Source: a virus
IMG/VR virus record: IMGVR_UViG_3300004461_000515
Location: 1 to 20,704 of that record
Length of the DNA: 20,704 bases
Strand: one strand, 5' to 3'
The translations under genes and the position numbers were made by a program. Positions 2,600 to 20,704 of this stretch are shown piece after piece (positions within the stretch are counted from its first letter, which is position 1; every line of letters starts with the position of its first letter). The notes under the pieces are model-generated. The model did not search any database. It saw only the letters and a program-made list of their open reading frames with translations, and had not been told where the DNA came from.

Positions 2600-4852
2600 A
2601 TGGCAATCTTTGGTCGCAACAAGAACGACAATGCTGAACTCATAGAGCAAATCGTTAGCGAACTCAAAAAGGCGCAGAACAACCTCGGCGTTACACCGAT
2701 GTCCAGCGCAGCACCATACGCTTCAACCGGAACCGGCGCAGGTGGTCAGGGGCTAATCCAAACCCCAGGCCGTGAAGCCACGCCCCTACCTCGCTTTGCC
2801 GATGCCTTCGGGTCACAGCTCGGCCCATCAGCGCCATTCATTCCAGCGCCCCTAGACCCCGTCTTCGATGACTCGGGCCGTGCGCTCCCCAGGCTCTATG
2901 AGTTCCCCGTAGCGTGGAACCTCAATCTCACCACTCAGAACGTTCCCTGGACTGTCCTTCGTGCGCTCACGGATCAATGCGACATCGTTCACCGTTGCAT
3001 CGAAATCTGCATCTCGGCCCTAGTCAAGATGGACTGGTCGTTCAAGGTCGATGAGTCAGTCATCGCCGAAATCATGAATGAGCAGAACTGCTCACACGCC
3101 AAAGCCTCACGCATCGCTCGTGACGAGTACGCCGAAGAACTAGACCGCCTACGCAAGTTCTGGGAGAACCCCTACCCTGACCTCGGGCGTGGCTGGGTCG
3201 AGTGGCTCACCGAGTTCCTGTGGCAGCACTACGCCTTCGATGGAGTGCCGGTCTACGCTCGCTACACCATCGGCAAGGACATCCTCGGCTTCGAGATTAT
3301 TGACGCACCGACCATCAAGGTCTTGCTCGACAATCGTGGTGCAGTACCTACGCCCCCGAACCCTGCCTACCAGCAGGTGCTGTGGGGCTTCCCTCGTGGC
3401 GAGTACCAAGCAACCCCTGAGGCCGATGGCGAGTTCTTCGCTGGCCCAGGTACGGGCAATGAGTACCTCCGAGACCAACTCTCCTATTTCGTTCGCAACC
3501 GCAGAACTTGGTCACCTTATGGCTTCTCGGCCGTAGAGGAGAGCGTGCCAGCAGCCACCCTTTACCTAGAGCGCCAAAAGTGGATGAACTCCGAGTACGC
3601 ATCCGGCACGATGCCGATGACCTTCATGGTGACTGACTCTGACGAGATGGACATCCGCAAGTTGGCTGAGTTCGAGCGCCTGTTCAACGACAAGCTCATG
3701 GGGTCAGCCACCGAGCGCCACCGTGTCAAGGTGCTGCCTAAGGGCTTCCACCCCCAGGCGATGCCTACAGTCGATGAGCGCTACAAGTCCGACTATGACG
3801 AGTTCATCATCAAGCGCATCGGGTCAGCCTTCGGTGTATCCCCTAGCCAACTCGGTGTGGTTCCACGCTCGGGTCTTGGCGGTAAGGGCGAACACGATGG
3901 TGAGATGGATCAAAGCGAGACCGTCAGCCTGAAGCCCATGATTGGCTTCATCAGCGAGGTCATCAACTCTCTCTGCCGGCGCTACCTCGGGTCAGACAAG
4001 AACGTCACCTTCGCCATGCAGAACAGCGAACTCGTGCAGAACCAGTTTGAGCAGGCTAAGGCGATGCAAACCTCCATCAACTCGGGTGCTAAGACCCTGA
4101 ACGATGTTCGTGGCGAACTCGGTCTGCCGTTGTACGAGATGCCTGAAGCCGATGAGCCGTTCGTGGAGACCCCCAATGGGCCGGTCTTCCTACGAGGCAC
4201 GATGATGATGAACACCTCTGGGGAAACCGTAGAACAGAAGGATGAATCCAATGGCGGAGTATTACACCTACAAGACCAAGAAGGCCAAAGTCCACAAGGC
4301 CAAGAAGGTCAAGGCGCACAAAGCGAAAGTTCACAAAGCAACCAGCGCCAAGAACCCATCGGTTCGAGCAAGCAGGCGCACGCTGAGCTAGTCGCATTCA
4401 ACAAGTTCGTGAAGGCCCGAGTGACTAAGGGCGCATGGCGTGACTTCACCTTCAACTACATCAACGAAGACGATGCCTACGAACTGAACCAGTCAGCGCA
4501 GTCGATAGTCAAGGGCGATGGACAGACCCCACCGCAGGCCGTTCAGAACGCTGCCAAGCAAGCCCTTGAATGGATCGCAGACGGCAAGGCTGGCTCGGGC
4601 TTCACCGATGTTGGTCGCAAGCGTGCCTCAGACCTCGCTAGAGGCGCTTCAGTCTCACTCACCACCATCCGGCGCATGAAGGCGTTCTTCGACCGTCACC
4701 AGTCTGACAAGGACAGCCCGAAGTGGGATGACCCCAGCGCAGGCAAGGTGGCGTGGTACGCATGGGGTGGCGATGCAGGCTACGCATGGGCCAAGCGAGT
4801 TCTAGGCGAAGAGAAGGCTGCGGAACCCGACCCTTTTTACTCGAGCCTCTGA
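2600..4852 (+). CDS. Portal protein with extra C-terminal domain
   Basis: A 750-residue protein; as a dodecamer it would form the DNA gate at the unique capsid vertex. Residues 1-100 are a low-complexity N-terminus leading to the stretch GRALPRLYEFPVAWNL. The portal core runs to about residue 540 and includes a long helix-rich segment with NRRTWSPYGFSAVEES and VSPSQLGV. A Q/G/S/E-rich linker follows (about 548-590), then a further C-terminal unit. Within that unit, residues 663-735 hold RKRASDLARGASVS, RRMKAFFDRH and AWGGDAGYAW, an accessory domain seen in other phage head proteins. The start has AAAGG 6 nt upstream. Two oddities are described separately: a lysine-rich ORF in another frame inside the linker, and a slippery heptamer just before the stop that would join this protein to the MuF frame. 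Confidence 0.92.
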   Translation: MAIFGRNKNDNAELIEQIVSELKKAQNNLGVTPMSSAAPYASTGTGAGGQGLIQTPGREATPLPRFADAFGSQLGPSAPFIPAPLDPVFDDSGRALPRLYEFPVAWNLNLTTQNVPWTVLRALTDQCDIVHRCIEICISALVKMDWSFKVDESVIAEIMNEQNCSHAKASRIARDEYAEELDRLRKFWENPYPDLGRGWVEWLTEFLWQHYAFDGVPVYARYTIGKDILGFEIIDAPTIKVLLDNRGAVPTPPNPAYQQVLWGFPRGEYQATPEADGEFFAGPGTGNEYLRDQLSYFVRNRRTWSPYGFSAVEESVPAATLYLERQKWMNSEYASGTMPMTFMVTDSDEMDIRKLAEFERLFNDKLMGSATERHRVKVLPKGFHPQAMPTVDERYKSDYDEFIIKRIGSAFGVSPSQLGVVPRSGLGGKGEHDGEMDQSETVSLKPMIGFISEVINSLCRRYLGSDKNVTFAMQNSELVQNQFEQAKAMQTSINSGAKTLNDVRGELGLPLYEMPEADEPFVETPNGPVFLRGTMMMNTSGETVEQKDESNGGVLHLQDQEGQSPQGQEGQGAQSESSQSNQRQEPIGSSKQAHAELVAFNKFVKARVTKGAWRDFTFNYINEDDAYELNQSAQSIVKGDGQTPPQAVQNAAKQALEWIADGKAGSGFTDVGRKRASDLARGASVSLTTIRRMKAFFDRHQSDKDSPKWDDPSAGKVAWYAWGGDAGYAWAKRVLGEEKAAEPDPFYSSL
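4251..4391 (+). CDS. Nested lysine-rich 46-residue ORF inside the portal linker
   Basis: In the +1 frame relative to the portal, an ATG at 4251 (AGAAGG 9 nt upstream, 4236-4241) opens a 46-codon ORF ending in TAG 4389-4391. It starts MAEYYTYKTKKAKVH and continues with imperfect repeats of KAKVH, giving a strongly basic histone H1-like peptide with about 12 lysines. Repeat copies at 4281-4295 and 4320-4334 differ at three bases. All three are third positions and silent in this frame (K, A, V), yet all three change the portal residue (G/S, Q/E, P/S). That pattern suggests selection on the nested frame, while the overlapping portal segment is a tolerant low-complexity linker. An in-frame ATG at 4242 is an alternative start. 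A nucleic-acid-binding role is inference; no homologue is recognised. Confidence 0.5.
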   Translation: MAEYYTYKTKKAKVHKAKKVKAHKAKVHKATSAKNPSVRASRRTLS

Positions 4853-5670
4853 ACAAGAGGCAGGCCCACGAACTGCCAGGCTTCCAAGCCAAACTGCAAA
4901 TCGAGAACTACTACCGACAGGCCATAGACAAAGCGCTGAAGTCGATGTTCACCGGTACTGACGAAGCCATCCGTGAGGCCATCGCTACGAAGGAGCAACT
5001 AGGCAAGGCCGTAGATCCGATGGACAAGTCGGCAGCCAAGCACGCAGTCGAGCGCAACGTCAAAGCGAACAACGCTCCCCTAGTCAAAGCACTCAAGAAC
5101 CTCTATGGCGATGCCGGTCTAAGGGGTACAAAAGAGGCGATGACTCAGATGGGTGGCGCTGCCAAACTTGGCTCGGGAATGAGTGGCCTCGCTGGTGGCG
5201 TAAACTGGGATAGGTGGAAGCCAGGCAATCCAGCAGCAGCCGAGAAGGTCGCTGGTAAGGGTCTAGCGGATCTACTACGGAACGCCGATGTCATCGTGCG
5301 AGGTATCACCCAGACCACAATGGGCCGTGTCGGTGACATTATCGCCAACGGTCTAGAGGCTGGTTCGACCTATCGGGAAATCTCCGATGTGGTAGACGAG
5401 CTACTCGACAACCCCACTCGCTCCGACATCATCTCAATCACCGAAACCAACCGAGCCTTCAACGTTTCAGCCATAGATGAATACCAGGCTGCAGAGATGC
5501 CAGGCTGGGAGTGGCTGACTTACGCTGGCGCTTGCGAGGAGTGCGATGCCGAGGAAGGCCCACACGACTTCGGAGATGATTACCCACCGGCTCACCCGAG
5601 TTGCCGGTGTGCAGTTGTAACACAACTTCCTGATGGAACTACTACAGAAGAAGAAAGCATGGAGGAATAA
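4786..5670 (+). CDS. MuF-type head morphogenesis protein (start unresolved, possibly made as portal fusion)
   Basis: A minor head protein of the SPP1 gp7/Mu gpF family, which associates with the portal inside the prohead. The diagnostic C-terminus is present: a helical stretch with SDIISITETNRAFNVSAIDEY, then CEEC, then PPAHPSCRC, a putative metal site. The centre is a long helical region. The start is uncertain. The frame is open upstream to GTG 4753 and ATGs 4762 and 4786, all deep within conserved portal sequence, and none has a convincing ribosome binding site. Protein-like sequence begins only near LNKRQAHELPGF at 4849, exactly at the portal stop; the next in-frame ATG (4945) would remove a clear helix. 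The listed start is simply the nearest upstream ATG. Initiation at CTG 4849 or a -1 frameshift from the portal at 4831-4837 are alternatives. Confidence 0.85.
   Translation: MGQASSRRREGCGTRPFLLEPLNKRQAHELPGFQAKLQIENYYRQAIDKALKSMFTGTDEAIREAIATKEQLGKAVDPMDKSAAKHAVERNVKANNAPLVKALKNLYGDAGLRGTKEAMTQMGGAAKLGSGMSGLAGGVNWDRWKPGNPAAAEKVAGKGLADLLRNADVIVRGITQTTMGRVGDIIANGLEAGSTYREISDVVDELLDNPTRSDIISITETNRAFNVSAIDEYQAAEMPGWEWLTYAGACEECDAEEGPHDFGDDYPPAHPSCRCAVVTQLPDGTTTEEESMEE
4812..4861 (+). promoter_or_regulatory. Candidate programmed -1 frameshift signal at the portal-MuF junction
   Basis: In the portal frame the sequence reads gaC CCT TTT tac, a perfect X XXY YYZ heptamer at 4831-4837, five codons before the portal stop when the stop is included. 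AGAAGG (4812-4817) lies 13 nt upstream, within the distance at which internal Shine-Dalgarno sequences stimulate -1 slippage in bacteria. A 6-bp hairpin (4845-4850 with 4856-4861, loop GAACA) begins 7 nt downstream, the usual spacer length. Slippage would continue in the MuF frame to 5670. Confidence 0.55.
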
Positions 5671-5675
5671 TCCAC

Positions 5676-7280
5676 ATGGCACAAGACATTACCTACGTTG
5701 GACTTGGTGACTTCACCTACAAATCAACCGCAGATGGTACGCTATTAGTGTTCGGAAAGGCCACCGGCCCTGACCTTGACCTCGACTCGCAAATCTGCGA
5801 TGCCGACTGGCTCAAGAGTGCAATGCCGTTGTGGTTTCAAACGGGTGCTAACATCCGTGAACAGCACTCAAGCATCGCTGCCGGTGTGGGTCTTGAACTC
5901 GCAGCCGATGGCGATGACTGGTTTCTGAAGTCCGAGGTCGTAGATCCTCTCACCGCTAAGAAGGTGGAGAAGGGTGTCCTCAAGGGCTACTCAATCGGCA
6001 TCAAGAACGCCAAAGTCATCAAGGATGCCAACGCCCCAGGTGGTCGCATCGTTTCTGGCAACATCGTAGAAGTGTCGCTTGTAGACCGCCCTGCTAACCC
6101 CACAGCCACAGTCCAAATCGCAAAGATGGTCGGAGAACAAATGGAACTCACCAAGTCAGACATCAACCAGGAAGCAGCGTTCGTTGAGCTACCTGCCACC
6201 GCAGACCTCGACACCTACGAAGGCACGAAGGTCTGTTCAGCCTGCGAGGGAACGGGCCGAGGCCTTGATGACCTCCCAGCCGATGAGATGGCCTGCGACA
6301 AGTGCAACGGTACGGGCAAGGAAGTTCTGGGCGCACAAGACACCCAGCAGTATTCCCCCAGCCAGCCAAACGCTGGCAAGCCTGTCAATGACATGGTGGA
6401 TGACAAGGCCGTTGAAGGCGAAGTTGAGAAGAAGGACTACACCGATGAGCAGCGTGCCTCAATGGAGGAGTCTGGTCAGGCTATGGAAGGTGGGGGCTTC
6501 CCCATCAAGACCGTCAGGGATCTAAAGAACGCCATTCAGTCCATTGGTCGTGCCAAAGACCGTGAGGCAACCATCGCCCACATCATCGCTCGTGCTAAGG
6601 CGATGGGCAAGGAAGACCTCATCCCTGACTCGTTCAAGGAAGTCACCCACGATGAAGCCACGCTGAACTCAGTTCGTGCTGGACTTATCGCTCTCATCAA
6701 GGCCGAGCTAGACGAAATGCTCGCCGGTGAAGAAGACGAGATTGGCGATGTGAGCGAACTGCTCTGCGCCCTTCAGATGTTTATCTGCTGGTGGGATGGC
6801 GAGGCTGACGAGAACGAGACTGTCGAGCCTTACGCCGACATGACCGAAGAAGCCCCCGAAATGTCATCAGTAGACATGAGCTACATGGGCCTCGGCGTAT
6901 CTGCCGACCTAATCAAGAGTGCATCTAGCGAGACCGCTACCGATGCCGACAAGACCGCACTCCGTGAAGAGATCCGTAAGGCTCTCGGCATAGACGAGGA
7001 AATCGCCACCTACAAGGCGAGTCTCACCGAGCAGGAAGAAGTCATCAAGGGCTTCAAGGCTGTTCTCGATGAGGTTCGAGGGATGGCAGCACCAGGAGGC
7101 CCAGTCCTCCGTCAAACACATTCGCAGGTCAAGAAATCTGCGGATGCCGAACGCTTGGAAATCGAGGCTGCACGACTTCGCAGCATCGCCGACCAGGTTG
7201 TCGATCCAGCACTCCGTAATGCGTACATTGCTAAGGCTCTCGAAGTCGAGTCCGATGCGAAGCGCATTGCCCGAGGCTAA
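5676..7280 (+). CDS. Prohead protease/scaffold polyprotein with DnaJ-like zinc motif and DUF6582-like domain
   Basis: A 534-residue protein far longer than a typical HK97-type prohead protease (about 200 residues). Residues 1-150 are an S78-type protease domain with REQHS (H64), KGYSIGI (S106) and VEVSLVDRPANP (E132), the conserved catalytic surroundings. Residues 187-214 carry two CxxCxGxG motifs (C187, C190, C207, C210), as in DnaJ zinc fingers. Residues 255-322, with GGFPIKTVRDLKNAIQSIGR and IIARAKAMGKEDLIPDSF, match DUF6582. A very acidic region (about 340-400) follows, then a predicted coiled-coil C-terminus (about 425-530), probably the scaffolding part. The protein would guide capsid assembly, then mature the head by cleaving itself and other head proteins. 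It starts 5 nt after the MuF stop, with GGAGG about 10 nt upstream. Confidence 0.9.
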   Translation: MAQDITYVGLGDFTYKSTADGTLLVFGKATGPDLDLDSQICDADWLKSAMPLWFQTGANIREQHSSIAAGVGLELAADGDDWFLKSEVVDPLTAKKVEKGVLKGYSIGIKNAKVIKDANAPGGRIVSGNIVEVSLVDRPANPTATVQIAKMVGEQMELTKSDINQEAAFVELPATADLDTYEGTKVCSACEGTGRGLDDLPADEMACDKCNGTGKEVLGAQDTQQYSPSQPNAGKPVNDMVDDKAVEGEVEKKDYTDEQRASMEESGQAMEGGGFPIKTVRDLKNAIQSIGRAKDREATIAHIIARAKAMGKEDLIPDSFKEVTHDEATLNSVRAGLIALIKAELDEMLAGEEDEIGDVSELLCALQMFICWWDGEADENETVEPYADMTEEAPEMSSVDMSYMGLGVSADLIKSASSETATDADKTALREEIRKALGIDEEIATYKASLTEQEEVIKGFKAVLDEVRGMAAPGGPVLRQTHSQVKKSADAERLEIEAARLRSIADQVVDPALRNAYIAKALEVESDAKRIARG

Positions 7281-7319
7281 ACAAACCAATCCCTAACTAC
7301 CAAGAAAGTAGAAATCATC

Positions 7320-8957
7320 ATGGCATTTTCAGCCCCATCAGTTGATGACCTCTTTGGTGGCCTTCCAGCCGAACAGCGTGTAGAGCGCTTCGAGGCATAC
7401 AAGGCCGCTTTGAGCGCTTGTCACACCAAGTCACTCCACGCTGCCGCTACCGGCTCAGCCTCCTTCGAAAAGGGTGTTGGCATCGTCAAGCACAACACCG
7501 TTGCTTCGCAGGCTGCCGAGTTCAAGGACAACCTGGCCAAGTCGGTTAGCGCCGACCAACTCGCTGCTGTTGAGAGCGCCCTTGCTGGCATCTCCGACAT
7601 CAACAAGGACTGGTCACTCACCAACCCGTTGAACACCGTTCCATACGGCAACATTGGTTTGGTTCCCTACGACCTCGACCCTGCGCTGTCGATGCTGGTT
7701 CCAAAGACCTTCATCCTCCGCAACCAGATCCCACGAGTGGGCGCTGTTGGTCAGGCACTTGAATTCCGCCGCATCCTCGGTGTGTCGAACTCAGGTACGG
7801 GTGGCGTTAGCAACCTCAACACCTTCTTCAACTCCAACTCAGTCACCTCCTCCTACGGTGGCGTGACTCTGAACCGCCCTAACAAGATTTCGTACGCTGC
7901 TGACCGCATCGTCAAGTCGTTCGTTGAGCAGGGTGTTTCGGACTCCGTTACGATGCAGGCCGAGTTCGCTGGTCGTGGATACACAGACCTTCGTCAGCTC
8001 AGCCACACCTCGTTGCTGTGGGCCACGATGCTCGGTGAAGAGCGCAACATGTTGAACGCTCGTTCGACTGCTCTCTCAACCTCAGGACTCACCTTCACGG
8101 GTGCTGCTGACACAACCGGTTCCGGTATCGCTACCGGTGGTGCTTCTTCAACTGTTGAAGTTACGCTGTCCTCATCGTTCGGTGAGACCGCCAAGTTGTC
8201 TGCTGGAACCATCACGGCTGTTGCCGGTCAAGGTGCAAAGGTCACCTACACCGGAACCATCCCATCTGGTTGCATTGCCTACAACATCTACGTCACCGTT
8301 GGCGCAGTTGTCTACAAGTCCACCGTGACTGACGTGGACTCTGGTACGGCTGGAAACGTGTTCTCGGTTGCTTCGGCTGCCCCCACCGTTGATGGTTCGT
8401 ACTCGAGCCTGGCCTACGATGGTTTCGTCAGCACGCTGACCGACACCACGCAGTCCGGTTACGTCAAGGCTTTGAACGGTGCGCTCAGCACCACCGAGCC
8501 AGGTGCAGAGTTCCAGGATGCCTTCGTTTCGCTGTTCAACAGCGTTCAGGCCGACCCTGACTTCATCCTCACCACCGCTGCAATCCGCCGTTCGCTCGCT
8601 AAGAGCATCCAGCAGCAGGGCAACCCAACGGGCTACCGCTTGAACTACGAAACTGGTTCAGACGGCATCACCATTGGATCCGTTGTCACGGCTATCGCCA
8701 ACGAAAGCACAGGCAAGATGGTGGACGTTATCGCCCACCGTTTCTGCCCTGCTGGTGTGGCGCTGGTTCACAGCACGCAGTTGCCTTTCCCTGACTCGGG
8801 TGTTTCCTCGACTGTTGAAGTTCACGCAGTCCAGGACCTCATGGTCATCGAGTGGCCTCAGATTGGCATGACGTACGACATCAGCTCGTACATGTACGGA
8901 ACGCTTGCCTTCCGTGCGCCTGCATGGTCTGGTGCAATCACCGGTATCACCGCCTAG
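7320..8957 (+). CDS. Major capsid protein, HK97 fold with inserted beta domain
   Basis: A 545-residue protein placed directly after the protease/scaffold gene, as expected for the shell subunit. The N-terminal 110 residues are helix-rich and could be a removable or internal arm. The HK97-like core follows, with LVPYDLDPALSMLVPKTFIL, a glycine/asparagine-rich loop near 155-182 and a helix near 192-240. Residues about 255-362 are a Ser/Thr/Gly-rich beta segment with fibronectin-like wording (AYNIYVTVGAVVYKS) that looks like an inserted surface domain. The core then resumes with helix and sheet segments and ends in LMVIEWPQIGMTYD and a hydrophobic C-terminus. Codon usage is strongly GC-ended, fitting high expression. 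The ribosome binding site (AAGAAAG) is modest and somewhat far from the ATG. The gene is followed by a structured non-coding region. Confidence 0.9.
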   Translation: MAFSAPSVDDLFGGLPAEQRVERFEAYKAALSACHTKSLHAAATGSASFEKGVGIVKHNTVASQAAEFKDNLAKSVSADQLAAVESALAGISDINKDWSLTNPLNTVPYGNIGLVPYDLDPALSMLVPKTFILRNQIPRVGAVGQALEFRRILGVSNSGTGGVSNLNTFFNSNSVTSSYGGVTLNRPNKISYAADRIVKSFVEQGVSDSVTMQAEFAGRGYTDLRQLSHTSLLWATMLGEERNMLNARSTALSTSGLTFTGAADTTGSGIATGGASSTVEVTLSSSFGETAKLSAGTITAVAGQGAKVTYTGTIPSGCIAYNIYVTVGAVVYKSTVTDVDSGTAGNVFSVASAAPTVDGSYSSLAYDGFVSTLTDTTQSGYVKALNGALSTTEPGAEFQDAFVSLFNSVQADPDFILTTAAIRRSLAKSIQQQGNPTGYRLNYETGSDGITIGSVVTAIANESTGKMVDVIAHRFCPAGVALVHSTQLPFPDSGVSSTVEVHAVQDLMVIEWPQIGMTYDISSYMYGTLAFRAPAWSGAITGITA

Positions 8958-8972
8958 TCATAGGCAACAGTC

Positions 8973-9100
8973 TGCCGGAGTATGGTTCGCCCTGCTCCGG
9001 CAAACTCGCTGGTCTTTCAGACCGGCACTTGCGAAGCCATAGTGCTTCAGCATCCCGAGGGTGGGTGGTTAGTTTCCTCCCCTGGCTGACCCCCACCCTC
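8973..9100 (+). other. Array of four predicted RNA hairpins downstream of the capsid gene
   Basis: The 163-nt gap 8958-9120 has no credible gene but folds almost completely by eye. Hairpin 1: 8973-8982 with 8993-9002, 10 bp, loop 10 nt. Hairpin 2: 9008-9015 with 9019-9026, 8 bp, loop TTC. Hairpin 3: 9031-9037 with 9044-9051, 7 bp, one bulged A. Hairpin 4: 9057-9072 with 9086-9100, 15 bp, one bulged T, loop 13 nt. It could stabilise the capsid mRNA 3' end, reduce read-through, or act as a small RNA; which one is unknown. Confidence 0.6.
9057..9100 (+). terminator. Strong GC-rich hairpin, terminator- or attenuator-like, without U tract
   Basis: GAGGGTGGG (9057-9065) pairs perfectly with CCCACCCTC (9092-9100), and GGTTAG (9067-9072) pairs with CTGACC (9086-9091) with one G-U pair; T9066 is bulged. 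It lies after the capsid gene and 8 nt before the AAGGAGAG ribosome binding site of the next gene. The following bases are CCATTCTC, so it is not a classical intrinsic terminator; an attenuator, an mRNA end-protecting stem or a translational control element fits as well. Confidence 0.4.
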
Positions 9101-9120
9101 CCATTCTCAAGGAGAGAGCA

Positions 9121-9372
9121 ATGCGATTAGTAGGTTCGGACAAAGGCCTCAAAGAAATCACCATGAACGACAGCGCCCCTGTCAAGCGTTCCAAAGACGG
9201 AACCTTTCATGTGGATGGCCCAGGCGCTCGTGCGCTAGTCAAGTCCGGTGACTTCGCCATTGCTGGCACTACGTTTCATGGCGCTCGTGGCTATCGCTGC
9301 CAAGACTGCCGGTTCCTATCGCTGTTCCCGAAGTGCAAATGCGGATCTACTAACACGATTGAAGAGGACTAA
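9121..9372 (+). CDS. Small zinc-ribbon protein of the head region
   Basis: An 83-residue protein of unrecognised family. The N-terminal half is polar; the C-terminal part holds four cysteines, YRCQDC and KCKCG (C60, C63, C72, C74), the layout of a rubredoxin-like zinc ribbon, and it ends acidic. AAGGAGAG lies 4 nt before the ATG at 9121; a second in-frame ATG at 9163 is less well placed. The stop overlaps the next start (TAATG). Position between capsid and connector suggests a head-associated or assembly role, but a regulatory DNA- or RNA-binding role is equally possible. Confidence 0.75.
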   Translation: MRLVGSDKGLKEITMNDSAPVKRSKDGTFHVDGPGARALVKSGDFAIAGTTFHGARGYRCQDCRFLSLFPKCKCGSTNTIEED

Positions 9373-11079: not shown

Positions 11080-12057
11080 ATGACTCAATTCATGACCGCC
11101 AATAGTTTCCTCGGTCTTGGTATCGAGAACGCCCGAGGCACGGCTGCTGCCAGCCCTAAGTTCATCCCGATTACCGCACCGCAGGTCACGCCTATGCAGG
11201 TGTTCCTTCGTGACGAAGCTCTGCGTGGATCTCCCACGACTGTCTACGACCAGGTGGCCGGTGTTCGCCATGATGAGTATGACGTGAAGGGCTATGTCTA
11301 CGCCGACACGTTCCCCATCTTGCTGCGCTCCATCCTCGGTGGAACCGACACCATCGCTGGTGCTGGCCCCTACACGCACGGCATCAAGTTGCTAAACAAC
11401 CAGACCGGTTCACAGCCACCCTCAGTCACCATCCAAGACTTTGACGGTGCTACCGCCTTCCAAATGACCGGCGCTCAGATGTCAGAACTGACCCTGACCT
11501 TCGGTGCTGAGGCTGCTGCCGAGTGGAGTGCAAAGTTCATGGGCAACCCCTACACGCAAATCAGCGCACCTAGCCCCTCCATCACCAGCGCCTCGTTCGT
11601 GCCAGGCTGGGACATCACAACTTCAATCGGTGGATCTAGCCTCGCCTACATCGCTGAAGGTGAAATCCGTATGAACCGCAACACGGCTCCTATCTTCACG
11701 ATGGGAACGCAGGCTCCACGAGTCTCGTTCGCTGGGCCTCTTGAAGTCACGGGTCGCTTGCTCGCAGTTGTCGAAAGCACCTCGGACATCTTCTCTAACG
11801 CCACCACCGGTTACGGTTTGTTCGACAGCCCACAGGCCACCGTCATCACCTTGACTGACCCCGTTAGCTCGAACACGATTGCCTTCACGATGACTAAGGC
11901 GCAGTTCTCTGAACCCAAGCGCCAGCGTGGAAAGGCTTTCGTGGAAGTTGAAGTAAACTTCACAGCGAACGCCAATGCGACTGATGCCTCTACCGGCTAC
12001 AGCCCCATTGCCACCGTTACCACGAACAACATCTCTACGGCCTACACGGGTTCGTAA
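11080..12057 (+). CDS. Major tail tube protein
   Basis: A 325-residue beta-rich protein placed between the tail terminator and the tail chaperone, the standard slot for the tube subunit. The N-terminus (FLGLGIENARGTAAASPKFI and ITAPQVTPMQVFLRDEALRG) and the repeated strand pattern with YDVKGYVYADTFPILLRSIL match siphophage tube proteins. The later half includes FTMTKAQFSEPKRQRGKAFV, VEVEVNFTANA and a Thr/Ser-rich tail that may be a small C-terminal extension. The subunits would stack as rings to form the non-contractile tail tube. AAAGGAA lies 6 nt before the ATG, consistent with high expression. Confidence 0.85.
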   Translation: MTQFMTANSFLGLGIENARGTAAASPKFIPITAPQVTPMQVFLRDEALRGSPTTVYDQVAGVRHDEYDVKGYVYADTFPILLRSILGGTDTIAGAGPYTHGIKLLNNQTGSQPPSVTIQDFDGATAFQMTGAQMSELTLTFGAEAAAEWSAKFMGNPYTQISAPSPSITSASFVPGWDITTSIGGSSLAYIAEGEIRMNRNTAPIFTMGTQAPRVSFAGPLEVTGRLLAVVESTSDIFSNATTGYGLFDSPQATVITLTDPVSSNTIAFTMTKAQFSEPKRQRGKAFVEVEVNFTANANATDASTGYSPIATVTTNNISTAYTGS

Positions 12058-12074
12058 TCAACTAAGGGGAGACC

Positions 12075-12479
12075 ATGCCAGCATTAGAACTACCGAACAG
12101 CGCATCAGCCATCATCGCAACCAGAGCCGAAATCAGCGAGCGCACATCTCGCAGCATCTCTCGTTCATACATGATTGCTGGCGCAACCATCGCACGCCTG
12201 CTTGAACTCGGCTATGACGAGTCAGATCCGAAGACGTGGTCTGCCTACTCAAAGCTCGATGAGGCAGAGCGTGAGGCCGTAGATGGCTACGAGGCTGCGC
12301 TAATCGTTGGCATGGTGAAGTCCTGGAGTCTCGGAGACTTGCCGACTGTGGACACGGTGTATGACCTGCCTAGCGAGACCTTCCGTGCGCTGGCAACGGC
12401 CTGCGGTGATGCCTACAGCAAGACCGAGGAGTTCGGCCCCGATGGAGTCACCGACCCAAAAGCGCCTACCGCCGACTGA
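12075..12479 (+). CDS. Tail assembly chaperone, short form (G-like)
   Basis: A 134-residue, mostly helical acidic protein between tail tube and tape measure. Proteins in this slot act as chaperones for the tape measure protein and are absent from the virion; they are made as a short form and as a -1 frameshifted longer form (lambda gpG and gpG-T). The N-terminus contains ISRSYMIAGATIARLLELGY and the C-terminus GDAYSKTEEFGPDGVTDPKA. AAGGGGAG lies before the ATG. A slippery heptamer occurs six codons before the stop (stop not counted after the heptamer: five sense codons), and the -1 frame stays open, so this is the non-shifted product. Confidence 0.85.
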   Translation: MPALELPNSASAIIATRAEISERTSRSISRSYMIAGATIARLLELGYDESDPKTWSAYSKLDEAEREAVDGYEAALIVGMVKSWSLGDLPTVDTVYDLPSETFRALATACGDAYSKTEEFGPDGVTDPKAPTAD

Positions 12480-13186: not shown

Positions 13187-14890
13187 ATGGGAAACTTGCC
13201 ACCAGTCAGAGTCGAACTCATTGCCGAAATCAAAGAGTTCATGGCTCGCATGAAAGAAGCCGAGCATGGTCTTGGCAAGGTCGGAGACAAGGCCAACTAC
13301 ACCAAAGAACGACTAGGCGCACTCGGTCAGAAGTTGGCTACCGGCGTTCTCGCTGGAGTCGGTGGAACGCTCGTGCTGGCTACCAAGTACGCCTTTGAGT
13401 ATCAGAAGTCGCTAGAGGAAATCGGCCTACAGGCCAACGTATCTGAAGAAGAACTGAAGCGCTTACACCACGCCGTTCTTGAGACCTCATCAGCCACCGC
13501 TACCGGTACAGAGCAGATTGCTAAGGCCTACCTCGCAGTCGAGAAGGCTGGCATCAAGGGCAAGCAAGCCGATGAGATGGTCACGCAGGCTGCGAAGTTG
13601 GCGAAGGTCGCTCATGCGGATCTAAACCAAACAGTCTCTGCCGGTCTTGTCATTCAGCAACTTGGTCTTGCTAAGGGCATGGACACCGTGCAGATGTACG
13701 ATGCCCTCTATGGTGCGGTGAAGAACTCTCGATTGTCGCTTGATGAACTGACCGGAGTGTTCCAGGGCAAGGCTGCACTAGCAATGTCAAACTACGGCAT
13801 CAAGCTCGGTGAGGTCGCTGGTGTGGCTAGCGTATTCAAGAAGGCCAACATGGATGCCGGTGCTGGTCTAGCAGGACTGAACCTGTCGCTGGTGAAACTG
13901 ACTACCGTGAACGATAAGGCCAACGACAAACTCAAGAGCGTAGGACTGAGCCAGAAGCAAATCGCTGAGGATCTAAAGAAGCCAAACGGTCTAATCACGA
14001 TGTTCACAGACCTATCTAGCCACATCAGCAAGTCCGGTATGCCACTTCAGCAGTTCCTCAACTCGTTAGTCGGCGCACGAGGCGCACAAGGTCTGGGCTT
14101 CCTTCTTAGCAACATGAAGGAACTACAGGACAGAGCAGGCACAGGTGGCGTGTCAGTCAAGAACGCCTTTGCCGAGTGGCTCAAGAACCCCGAAGGTGCG
14201 CTACAGAACTTCAAGACGGTGGCACAGAACACCCTCATCGGCCTCGGCAACTTGCTGCTGCCAAAAGTTTCGGATGGATTGAACTTTCTCAATGCCGTGA
14301 TTGACAAGTTTCAAACCAACAAGACTTGGCACAATGCTGGAATACAAATCGGAACCGGACTTCTAGCCATCATTACTTCTGCAAAACTTGCTAGCTGGGG
14401 AGTAGCCATTGCAGAGTCCTTTGGGGTTGCAACCGCAGGTATGACAGGCGAACTTGGTGTCGGTATTGCTGCTTCTATTGCCTCGGTGCTTGGTATCAAA
14501 TACATCGTGGATCAGAATAAAAACTGGCTATCCAATTTCAACGACTTCATTTCCACCATGTTGAATAACACCGCCAACCCCACGCCAAGCAATGACGGCA
14601 CACCCACACCGAAGAAGCCAAAGAAGCCATTGCCAGGATTGCCTGTTGGTCAAACTTATGTCACAGCCAACGCTGGTGAACTAGCAACTGATAAGTCTCA
14701 CATTGTGACTGGTTCAGGTTTGAACACCAGAATAACCAACGCTCAACTTTCGGCAGCATTGGCTTATGTCCAATCTCACAAGATAAACATCAACACGCAA
14801 CAAGGCAACAACATTCTTTCTCAAATTCTCTTTGGTTTTCAGAGTCAAGACAAAAAGGGAAACTACTCCGTGACTGTGAACATCAACTAA
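13187..14890 (+). CDS. Tape measure protein
   Basis: A 567-residue, largely helical protein directly downstream of the tail chaperone block. It starts with a charged helix, then a hydrophobic segment (LATGVLAGVGGTLVLA, about 50-65). Next is the TP901-type core with EIGLQANVSEEELKRL, SATATGTEQIAKAYLAVEKA and SNYGIKLGEVAGVAS. Hydrophobic helices lie near residues 382-400 and 420-445, and the C-terminus is Asn/Thr/Pro-rich with a KKPKKPLPG hinge. The protein sets tail length and may help DNA enter the cell. At about 1.5 angstrom per residue this predicts a tail of roughly 85 nm. AAAGGAAA precedes the ATG. From about base 14280 the GC content drops to 38-43% in sampled blocks, unlike the first two thirds, suggesting the C-terminal module was acquired separately. 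Confidence 0.88.
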   Translation: MGNLPPVRVELIAEIKEFMARMKEAEHGLGKVGDKANYTKERLGALGQKLATGVLAGVGGTLVLATKYAFEYQKSLEEIGLQANVSEEELKRLHHAVLETSSATATGTEQIAKAYLAVEKAGIKGKQADEMVTQAAKLAKVAHADLNQTVSAGLVIQQLGLAKGMDTVQMYDALYGAVKNSRLSLDELTGVFQGKAALAMSNYGIKLGEVAGVASVFKKANMDAGAGLAGLNLSLVKLTTVNDKANDKLKSVGLSQKQIAEDLKKPNGLITMFTDLSSHISKSGMPLQQFLNSLVGARGAQGLGFLLSNMKELQDRAGTGGVSVKNAFAEWLKNPEGALQNFKTVAQNTLIGLGNLLLPKVSDGLNFLNAVIDKFQTNKTWHNAGIQIGTGLLAIITSAKLASWGVAIAESFGVATAGMTGELGVGIAASIASVLGIKYIVDQNKNWLSNFNDFISTMLNNTANPTPSNDGTPTPKKPKKPLPGLPVGQTYVTANAGELATDKSHIVTGSGLNTRITNAQLSAALAYVQSHKININTQQGNNILSQILFGFQSQDKKGNYSVTVNIN

Positions 14891-19546: not shown

Positions 19547-20704
19547 ATGGCCTTTACAGAAATCTCACGTCAGTCTTCAACTGTTATTCGTGCTTCGGCA
19601 ACGACAGCCACCGACACTAAGAACCTGTCCGCTACCCCTGCTGCTGGACAATGGCTGGTGGTCGCTCTCTACACCAATCAAGGCATCATTCCTAGAAGTT
19701 TCATTACCGGTACGAACAACCAAGTGAGTTCGGTGACGTGCGGTAGCGTCACAATGTCGCTACTAGAGGAGGCATTGAATACCGGCAACAGCTCGCCCAC
19801 AGTTTTCATCGCCCCGTATCAGTCGGGAATGAGTACGGCAATCAACGTGACGTGGACAAACGGCATTGCAAGCACAACGTTAGGTATTGCTGCAATGGTT
19901 TTCACCGGCCCATTGACCGGTGCTTCCTCTGGGTACGCTCAGTTCAGGTATTCCGGCCCTGGAACTAACGGGGCGTTTGACGGATCGGGTAATGACTCGG
20001 CAGCGTTTGGTCAAACTCAAGCGGGTTCTAGTGCTGGCATTGTCACATGGGCTAGTTCCGCCACAGGTGTTCCCACAAGTTATGACACTCAGGGTGAAGT
20101 TTTTATTGCTGCTACAAGCGCAACGCTGTCATCTGCTGTCAATCAGCCGAGACAGTTTTCATTGTTCGGTGCAGGCGTTGATGCTTCAGGCAACTTGACA
20201 ACGCTTGGACAAGCAACGGGAACTGTTCTAATCAGCAGCGCAACAACTGTCGTGACTTCAGGCAAGGGCGTAATTTATTCTCCATCCGGCAATTTTGTTT
20301 TCACCTACACCGGAACTAACACGGTGGCAAGTACCTTGACCGGTTGCACAACGACTGCGCCTAGTGGAACAACCATTCCTGGTTATTGCCAACTGATGCT
20401 TACCAGCAACGGCACAAACACAATCAGCGCAATCCTTCCTACCAACTCATTGACATCAGGAACGCTCGGTGGGTTTCAGACCGGCAACTCGGCTACCTAT
20501 ACCGGTGCTTCCACAGCGAACGGTCACGTTCAAACAGCCATTGCTGGTGGCGGTACTCCTGCACGACTTGACCTCATGCTTGGTTCAAACGTGGCTGGCA
20601 CAACGTCAGTCAAGGCGTACGGCAACCTCAAAATCTCCGGTTCATTCACACCTGTCGGTGGGGGGTTCATCTACACAATGGTTCCACCTACTCGAACGAT
20701 GACG
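19547..20704 (+). CDS. Tail fibre-like beta-rich protein, 3' truncated by window edge
   Basis: The frame opens at ATG 19547 (AGGGG 6 nt upstream) and stays open for 386 codons to the end of the window. The first 125 residues form a beta domain (GQWLVVALYTN, TVFIAPYQSGM, TLGIAAMVFTGPLTG). The middle is Ser/Thr/Gly-rich, with GVIYSPSGNFVFTYTGTN followed by TLTGCTTTAPSGT, a turn motif seen in several phage tail proteins. No catalytic motif is visible. A surface-exposed fibre or receptor-binding role is likely from context. GC content in sampled blocks is 45-47%, clearly below the preceding gene (62% in one block), which suggests an exchanged host-range module. Confidence 0.7.
   Translation, partial: MAFTEISRQSSTVIRASATTATDTKNLSATPAAGQWLVVALYTNQGIIPRSFITGTNNQVSSVTCGSVTMSLLEEALNTGNSSPTVFIAPYQSGMSTAINVTWTNGIASTTLGIAAMVFTGPLTGASSGYAQFRYSGPGTNGAFDGSGNDSAAFGQTQAGSSAGIVTWASSATGVPTSYDTQGEVFIAATSATLSSAVNQPRQFSLFGAGVDASGNLTTLGQATGTVLISSATTVVTSGKGVIYSPSGNFVFTYTGTNTVASTLTGCTTTAPSGTTIPGYCQLMLTSNGTNTISAILPTNSLTSGTLGGFQTGNSATYTGASTANGHVQTAIAGGGTPARLDLMLGSNVAGTTSVKAYGNLKISGSFTPVGGGFIYTMVPPTRTMT

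Follow-up and report, generated by a model that had tools for sequence, protein, structure and literature searches.

A conserved two-hairpin RNA in the 3' UTR of a freshwater phage capsid gene and the complementarity of its loop to the Shine-Dalgarno sequence of a predicted tail assembly chaperone gene

The region following a phage capsid gene is a known place for RNA structure: Tphi of phage T7 is an intrinsic terminator located after the capsid gene, and the Mu-gpT-DE motif is a structured RNA found downstream of the capsid genes of Mu-like phages. The amounts of tail assembly chaperones (TACs) must be kept within narrow limits, and their known control is the ratio of −1 frameshifting; a tail tube gene followed by a chaperone gene with a slippery heptamer and an open −1 frame constitutes the G/GT arrangement of these proteins. 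In mycobacteria, the C-rich loops of B11/6C were demonstrated, with the use of a reporter, to repress mRNA bearing a G tract in its 5' UTR (PMC10470900). Regulatory RNAs of phages, OOP, aQ, STnc6030 and IsrK among them, have been reviewed; the examples considered here base-pair with phage mRNAs, mostly as overlapping antisense transcripts or in lysogeny and superinfection (PMC12197685).

The element described here shares with 6C/B11 of Actinobacteria a stable hairpin, a C-rich apical loop and predicted pairing with a G tract in the 5' UTR of an mRNA; judged by its letters, the Shine-Dalgarno (SD) sequence of the putative TAC gene provides such a tract near a start codon. Unlike 6C/B11, it is borne by a phage, lies between the capsid gene and the next gene, and has one main predicted target, a phage morphogenesis gene; unlike 6C, it has a C-rich loop on one hairpin (B) instead of two. 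The covariance model of 6C gave no match at the Rfam gathering score in the DNA studied here and in eight relatives. With OOP, aQ, STnc6030 and IsrK the element would have in common the base-pairing of a phage RNA with a phage mRNA, but not the overlapping antisense arrangement or the role in lysogeny or superinfection, and the word "capsid" is absent from the review (PMC12197685). With post-capsid intrinsic terminators, such as Tphi and those of THSA-485A, MMB025 and Sonali, it shares the genomic position and a strong hairpin; it differs from them by lacking a conserved U tract and by having a conserved loop and a second hairpin. As a structured RNA beside a capsid gene it is also similar to Mu-gpT-DE, for which the Rfam scans returned no match, and a literature search found no describing paper. 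Literature on phage small RNAs, control of tail chaperones and long-range SD pairing, searched mostly outside subscription journals, contained nothing alike. The combination of a capsid 3' UTR with a TAC SD is thus probably new.

The window, i.e. the whole stretch of 20,704 nucleotides that was analysed (IMG/VR virus record IMGVR_UViG_3300004461_000515, positions 1-20,704), contains genes for terminase, portal, protease, capsid and tail, every one of them on the + strand, with the capsid gene following those of terminase, portal and protease. The capsid protein (P0001) has homologues in MMB025 and Sonali that are annotated as major head/capsid proteins. The features of the post-capsid region are as follows.

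7320-8957, + strand: major capsid gene, 545 aa (P0001; PHROG 13692, E 6e-77); its 3' UTR is the place of the element
8958-9120, + strand: structured intergenic RNA of 163 nt, from the capsid gene to an 83-aa ORF (z −5.55)
8973-9002, + strand: hairpin 1, extra and lineage-specific, 10 bp plus a 3-bp base at 8969-9006
9008-9026, + strand: hairpin A (hairpin 2), conserved, 8 bp, type UCGCU...GGCA, identically placed in nearly all relatives, with covarying pairs
9030-9052, + strand: hairpin 3, extra and lineage-specific, 8 bp with one bulge, missing from locus L006
9057-9100, + strand: hairpin B (hairpin 4), conserved, 17 bp with one bulge and a 9-nt loop; supported by the fold, by covariation and by model R1
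9077-9083, + strand: putative antisense seed CUCCCCU in the apical loop of B, unpaired probability 0.76-1.0, perfect complement of 12065-12071
9109-9116, + strand: SD of P2, AAGGAGAG, complementary to the loop over 4 nt only
9121-9372, + strand: P2, 83 aa with four invariant Cys, candidate secondary target with an own-partner signal weaker than that of TAC

The original prediction, made from the letters of this DNA, described four back-to-back hairpins in the gap, with stems of 10, 8, 7 and 15 bp, and regarded them as a maintained RNA structure. All four are present, with stems within a base or two of those lengths. The minimum free energy of positions 8958-9120 is −79.3 kcal/mol, compared with −54.8 +/− 4.4 for dinucleotide-shuffled sequences, none of 200 shuffles being as low, so that the proposed comparison with shuffled DNA came out clearly in favour of structure. 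The two lowest z-scores of the window, −6.2 and −5.7, also fall in the gap (515 overlapping 120-nt windows; mean −0.2, sd 1.1). The next most structured stretches, 7201-7320 and 20121-20240, have z-scores of about −4.1, and the former covers the short gap 5' of the capsid gene.

Relatives were collected by a search with the capsid protein, which gave 71 related viral contigs, and by further scans, which gave more; most of their capsids are 51-99% identical, and about 53 distinct gap sequences are represented. The phages form a freshwater family, and no close relative of the window phage has been cultured. In nearly all relatives the post-capsid gap bears two hairpins, of which A is small and starts with UCGCU, and B is long and has a loop rich in pyrimidines. 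Hairpin 1 was found in L001-L005 and L008, and is missing from L006 and from every other clade. Since L006, with a capsid 88% identical, has hairpins A and B only, hairpins 1 and 3 are additions of the window's lineage. The four-hairpin array as one maintained unit was therefore upheld for the second and fourth hairpins, and has to be abandoned for the first and third.

Covariation across the homologous gaps, another check that had been proposed, was assessed by aligning 16 divergent members with MAFFT, independently of any covariance model. Compensatory changes occurred in 21 of 28 pairs, and 94.8% of cells were paired, versus 76% after shuffling and 40-52% when the pairing was slid. When 77 loci were scanned with a covariance model built on this alignment, the element was found next to the capsid gene and nowhere else on the + strand in 528 kb, the sole other matches being two partial ones on the reverse strand of the element itself. 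Model R1 matches the window at 9029-9125 (E 3e-4), and the model also matches a Sphaerisporangium prophage whose capsid is 39% identical (E 8e-4). Among 58 distinct model matches, in an alignment fitted to the model, 391 double-change cells were counted versus 93 in shuffles. On the capsid-sense strand G-U cells numbered 117 and A-C cells 14; this excess indicates selection on RNA of the capsid strand. The core of hairpins A and B is a conserved RNA structure on the sense strand, as the idea of a maintained structure had anticipated. Letters conserved beyond pairing are UCGCU of A, a 2-nt bulge of B and the loop core; the loops of hairpin A are UUC, GAGUAAUC, UUGC and similar. One clade (L219-L233) carries a hairpin A that is greatly lengthened, at about 4100-4200 of the locus, and the inner part of the added segment, GACAGGCUG...CGCCG, is conserved.

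Several other identities of the gap were considered. A known RNA family was rejected, as Rfam gave zero matches at the gathering score, for the window and for eight relatives alike, and weak miRNA matches were attributed to chance. Neither tRNA nor tmRNA was found in the gap, nor a sigma-70-type promoter in or near it. A protein-coding gap was rejected because changes of letters preserve the base pairs, and because in many relatives the capsid stop is soon followed by further stop codons.

The loop of hairpin B resembles an anti-SD, but its fit to the adjacent gene is modest. When this loop in the window (UCCUCCCCU, 9075-9083) was compared with all gene starts, ORF 12075 was singled out; the loop is complementary to its SD. 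The features at this end are listed below.

11080-12057, + strand: tail tube gene (Pfam Phage_tube_2, E 4e-18), its stop codon 7 nt before the SD of ORF 12075
12065-12071, + strand: putative target site AGGGGAG, the SD of ORF 12075, single occurrence in the window's + strand
12075-12479, + strand: ORF 12075, predicted tail assembly chaperone G (TAC), 134 aa, between the tail tube and tape-measure-like genes
12455-12461, + strand: slippery heptamer C CCA AAA for a predicted −1 frameshift to GT, in frame, with the −1 frame open to 12676 (75 codons)

The name given to ORF 12075 derives from its position and its frameshift site. A PhageMin_Tail match at 13187 places it between tube and tape measure, as expected for a TAC, and an in-frame slippery heptamer, CCCAAAA or CCCTTTA, is present in 13 of 13 homologues; the protein itself could not be credibly matched to any known chaperone family in PHROG or Pfam. 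It is thus predicted to be the chaperone of a G/GT pair.

In the window, the loop seed and the TAC SD are perfectly complementary over 7 nt, and TAC lies downstream at a distance of about 3 kb (3.1 kb). For 36 non-redundant pairs, the uninterrupted run between a loop and the TAC SD of the same genome was on average 6.97 bp, compared with 6.13 bp for swapped partners (z 5.3), and the energy was −13.0 versus −11.7 kcal/mol (z 4.5). The own-partner value was reached in none of 20,000 permutations. These do not correct for phylogeny; the control families have the same phylogeny, but one of them, the adjacent gene P2, also scores. The result held when one member per loop and SD type was retained (6.96 versus 5.98 bp, 25 pairs). 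The control for shared ancestry was provided by tests with other gene families, seven of eight non-TAC families giving low values: for the SDs of the protease, capsid, 9372, 10295, 10818, tube and 12660 genes of the same genomes, z was between −0.9 and 1.9. Segments located 5' and 3' of the loop gave z about 0 against the TAC SD, the highest being 1.1. The 3' strand of B, considered as an anti-SD, was rejected for the TAC SD, as an own-partner signal was not found for it. Neighbouring SDs are of the GGAG type, from which that of TAC has moved away toward the complement of the loop: AGGGGA occurs in 62% of 34 TAC SDs and in 5 of 352 SDs (about 1.4%) of eight other families (Fisher 2e-21, phylogeny uncorrected). 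Raw duplex energy was not used alone as evidence, because by this measure the TAC SD does not rank first genome-wide in every case; other sites, mostly away from gene starts, pair equally well or better. In the window, GGGG of the TAC SD is partly paired in the local fold (unpaired 0.08-0.24).

Across relatives the pairing length is 6-10 bp, and in six contigs first met after the hypothesis was formed it was 7-8 bp in all six, which, as they belong to known clades, is a check rather than independent proof. Most lineages on the capsid tree have the core UCCCCU/AGGGGA (6 bp), nearly invariant among C4/G4 members, so that covariation at the level of positions rests on flanking positions and variant lineages. 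Single-register position tests gave P 0.028 at −2, 0.037 at +3 and 0.09 at +2, and are moderate because the core hardly varies. In several lineages the pair has changed on both sides: AGUCCCC/GGGGACU in L037, CUUCCCC/GGGGAAG in L018, UUCCCUU/AAGGGAA in L010, CCCUUCCUU/AAGGAAGGG in L174 and UGUCUCC/GGAGACA in L048. In L099 (GUUCCCCUUC/GAAGGGGAAC) and L098 (UCCCCUUUCU/AGAAAGGGGA) it is lengthened to 10 bp. In L053, L054, L068 and L071, where the start of the chaperone gene coincides with the tube stop codon and an SD is lacking, the C-rich loop is missing too. Exceptions are L011 and L014, which keep the TAC SD and have a terminator-like hairpin with a U-rich stretch in place of the C-rich loop; L033 and L047/L051 show a poor fit of loop and SD. 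Among the distant prophage relatives L147-L149, left out of target assignment as their starts and TAC are uncertain, L147 keeps a post-capsid hairpin with the loop CGCUCCCCUGAG. These data support a specific pairing of loop and TAC SD, kept by co-variation; at the level of sequence, the fold, its strand, its position and the co-varying complementarity may be taken as established.

The most plausible explanation, to which we give a fair but by no means decisive degree of credence, is that the capsid 3' UTR acts as a riboregulator, in which the loop of B pairs with the TAC SD and represses TAC translation. Together with hairpin A, the long stem of B makes a stable 3' structure presenting the pyrimidine-rich apical loop, which would serve as an antisense seed for the SD 3.1 kb downstream. 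The pairing would most likely block ribosome binding at TAC and lower its translation, and plentiful capsid mRNA, whole or as a stable fragment, could keep TAC low relative to capsid and tail tube. The nearest precedent for such a mechanism is the repression by the C-rich loops of B11/6C (PMC10470900). We infer that the pairing takes place in infected cells, that it is repressive, and that it acts either in cis or in trans. In a cis variant both sites may reside on one late message; in trans, stable 3' hairpins would suit a released fragment, and we slightly favour action of such a 3'-UTR small RNA over action in cis on one polycistronic message. Of the functions first suggested for the gap, i.e. 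protection of the 3' UTR, a processed small RNA or an attenuator, the small RNA comes nearest, and all of them omit a loop antisense to the TAC SD. A more far-reaching version, in which the capsid 3' UTR yields a stable trans-acting small RNA serving as a stoichiometry sensor, so that capsid expression represses TAC and links head to tail across the clade, is a tentative proposal. The host is probably an actinobacterium, judged from prophage relatives only.

A simpler role for the hairpins, which we find rather unlikely as a full account, would be that of a leaky, non-canonical terminator or 3' stabiliser, raising capsid over downstream genes, with the letters of the loop incidental. The position and the stability of the stem fit it: the relatives examined have a strong post-capsid hairpin, the 17-bp stem of B is a G+C-rich hairpin as in intrinsic terminators, and hairpin clusters were proposed as terminators (PMC8355165). 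Distant relatives have canonical terminators in the post-capsid gap, and a hairpin followed by a U-rich stretch was seen at the same place in L011 and L014 and in the cultured THSA-485A, MMB025 and Sonali. However, no U tract directly follows stem B in the window (tail CCAUUCUC), and U tracts are mostly missing elsewhere, with a mean of 2.5 U in 10 nt past the stem (62 elements). The early remarks that the last stem is not followed by a U tract, and that a simple intrinsic terminator is inadequate, have thus proved right, a canonical terminator not being the conserved feature. Moreover, a terminator or stabiliser gives no reason for the loop to be conserved, to match a single distant SD or to re-pair in variant lineages. 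Such a role of the stem is compatible with the riboregulator, and may be a possible route of 3' end formation.

A separate problem is the SD of P2, a few nt past hairpin B. Loop pairing with this next SD was the first idea of the main function, and was demoted in view of the 4-nt match in the window and energies near background. A cis switch for P2, with the loop or the 3' strand of B pairing with its SD, agrees with an own-partner signal of z 4.6 (run) and 2.9 (energy), and the loops of L113 and L009 match the next SD over 8 bp. Nevertheless, the mean energy of −8.3 is near that of other genes and far from −13.0 for TAC, and, on geometric grounds, an intramolecular pseudoknot would require the opening of the stem, which measures about 17-20 bp and has only a short linker. 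A 9-nt loop on a 17-bp stem suits pairing elsewhere, not with an SD a few nt away, which favours a distant target. We consider the cis switch improbable; the P2 signal could mean that P2 is a further target, or could spill over from SDs of similar sequence. A small ORF apparently lies between hairpin B and P2 in several clades (L009, L017, L026, L092, L099, L200), so the hairpin-adjacent SD there is that of another gene. The product of P2 gave no Pfam or PHROG match; its cysteines, CxxC...CxC, are invariant in 40 aligned homologues, and it is zinc-ribbon-like.

Least probable of all is recognition of the C-rich loop by a protein of the phage or the host, its complementarity to TAC then reflecting a shared purine/pyrimidine bias: the letters conserved beyond pairing would fit, but pairing is weakened by shuffling the loop letters (adjacent-SD test) or swapping partners, and the TAC SD itself has shifted toward the loop.

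If repression of TAC by the capsid 3' UTR is true, it would constitute a second, assembly-level control of TAC besides the frameshift ratio, joining head and tail modules, and capsid production may set the amount of a tail-building protein. It would also give a reason for the long structured gap that these phages have behind the capsid gene, and would mean that the partner of a loop can be found without expression data, by testing own partners against swapped ones in a range of gene families.

Apart from this element, a head morphogenesis-like ORF (4753-5670) and the 3' end of the portal ORF (2600-4852) share 100 nt in different frames, and a portal fusion or a frameshift is possible there.
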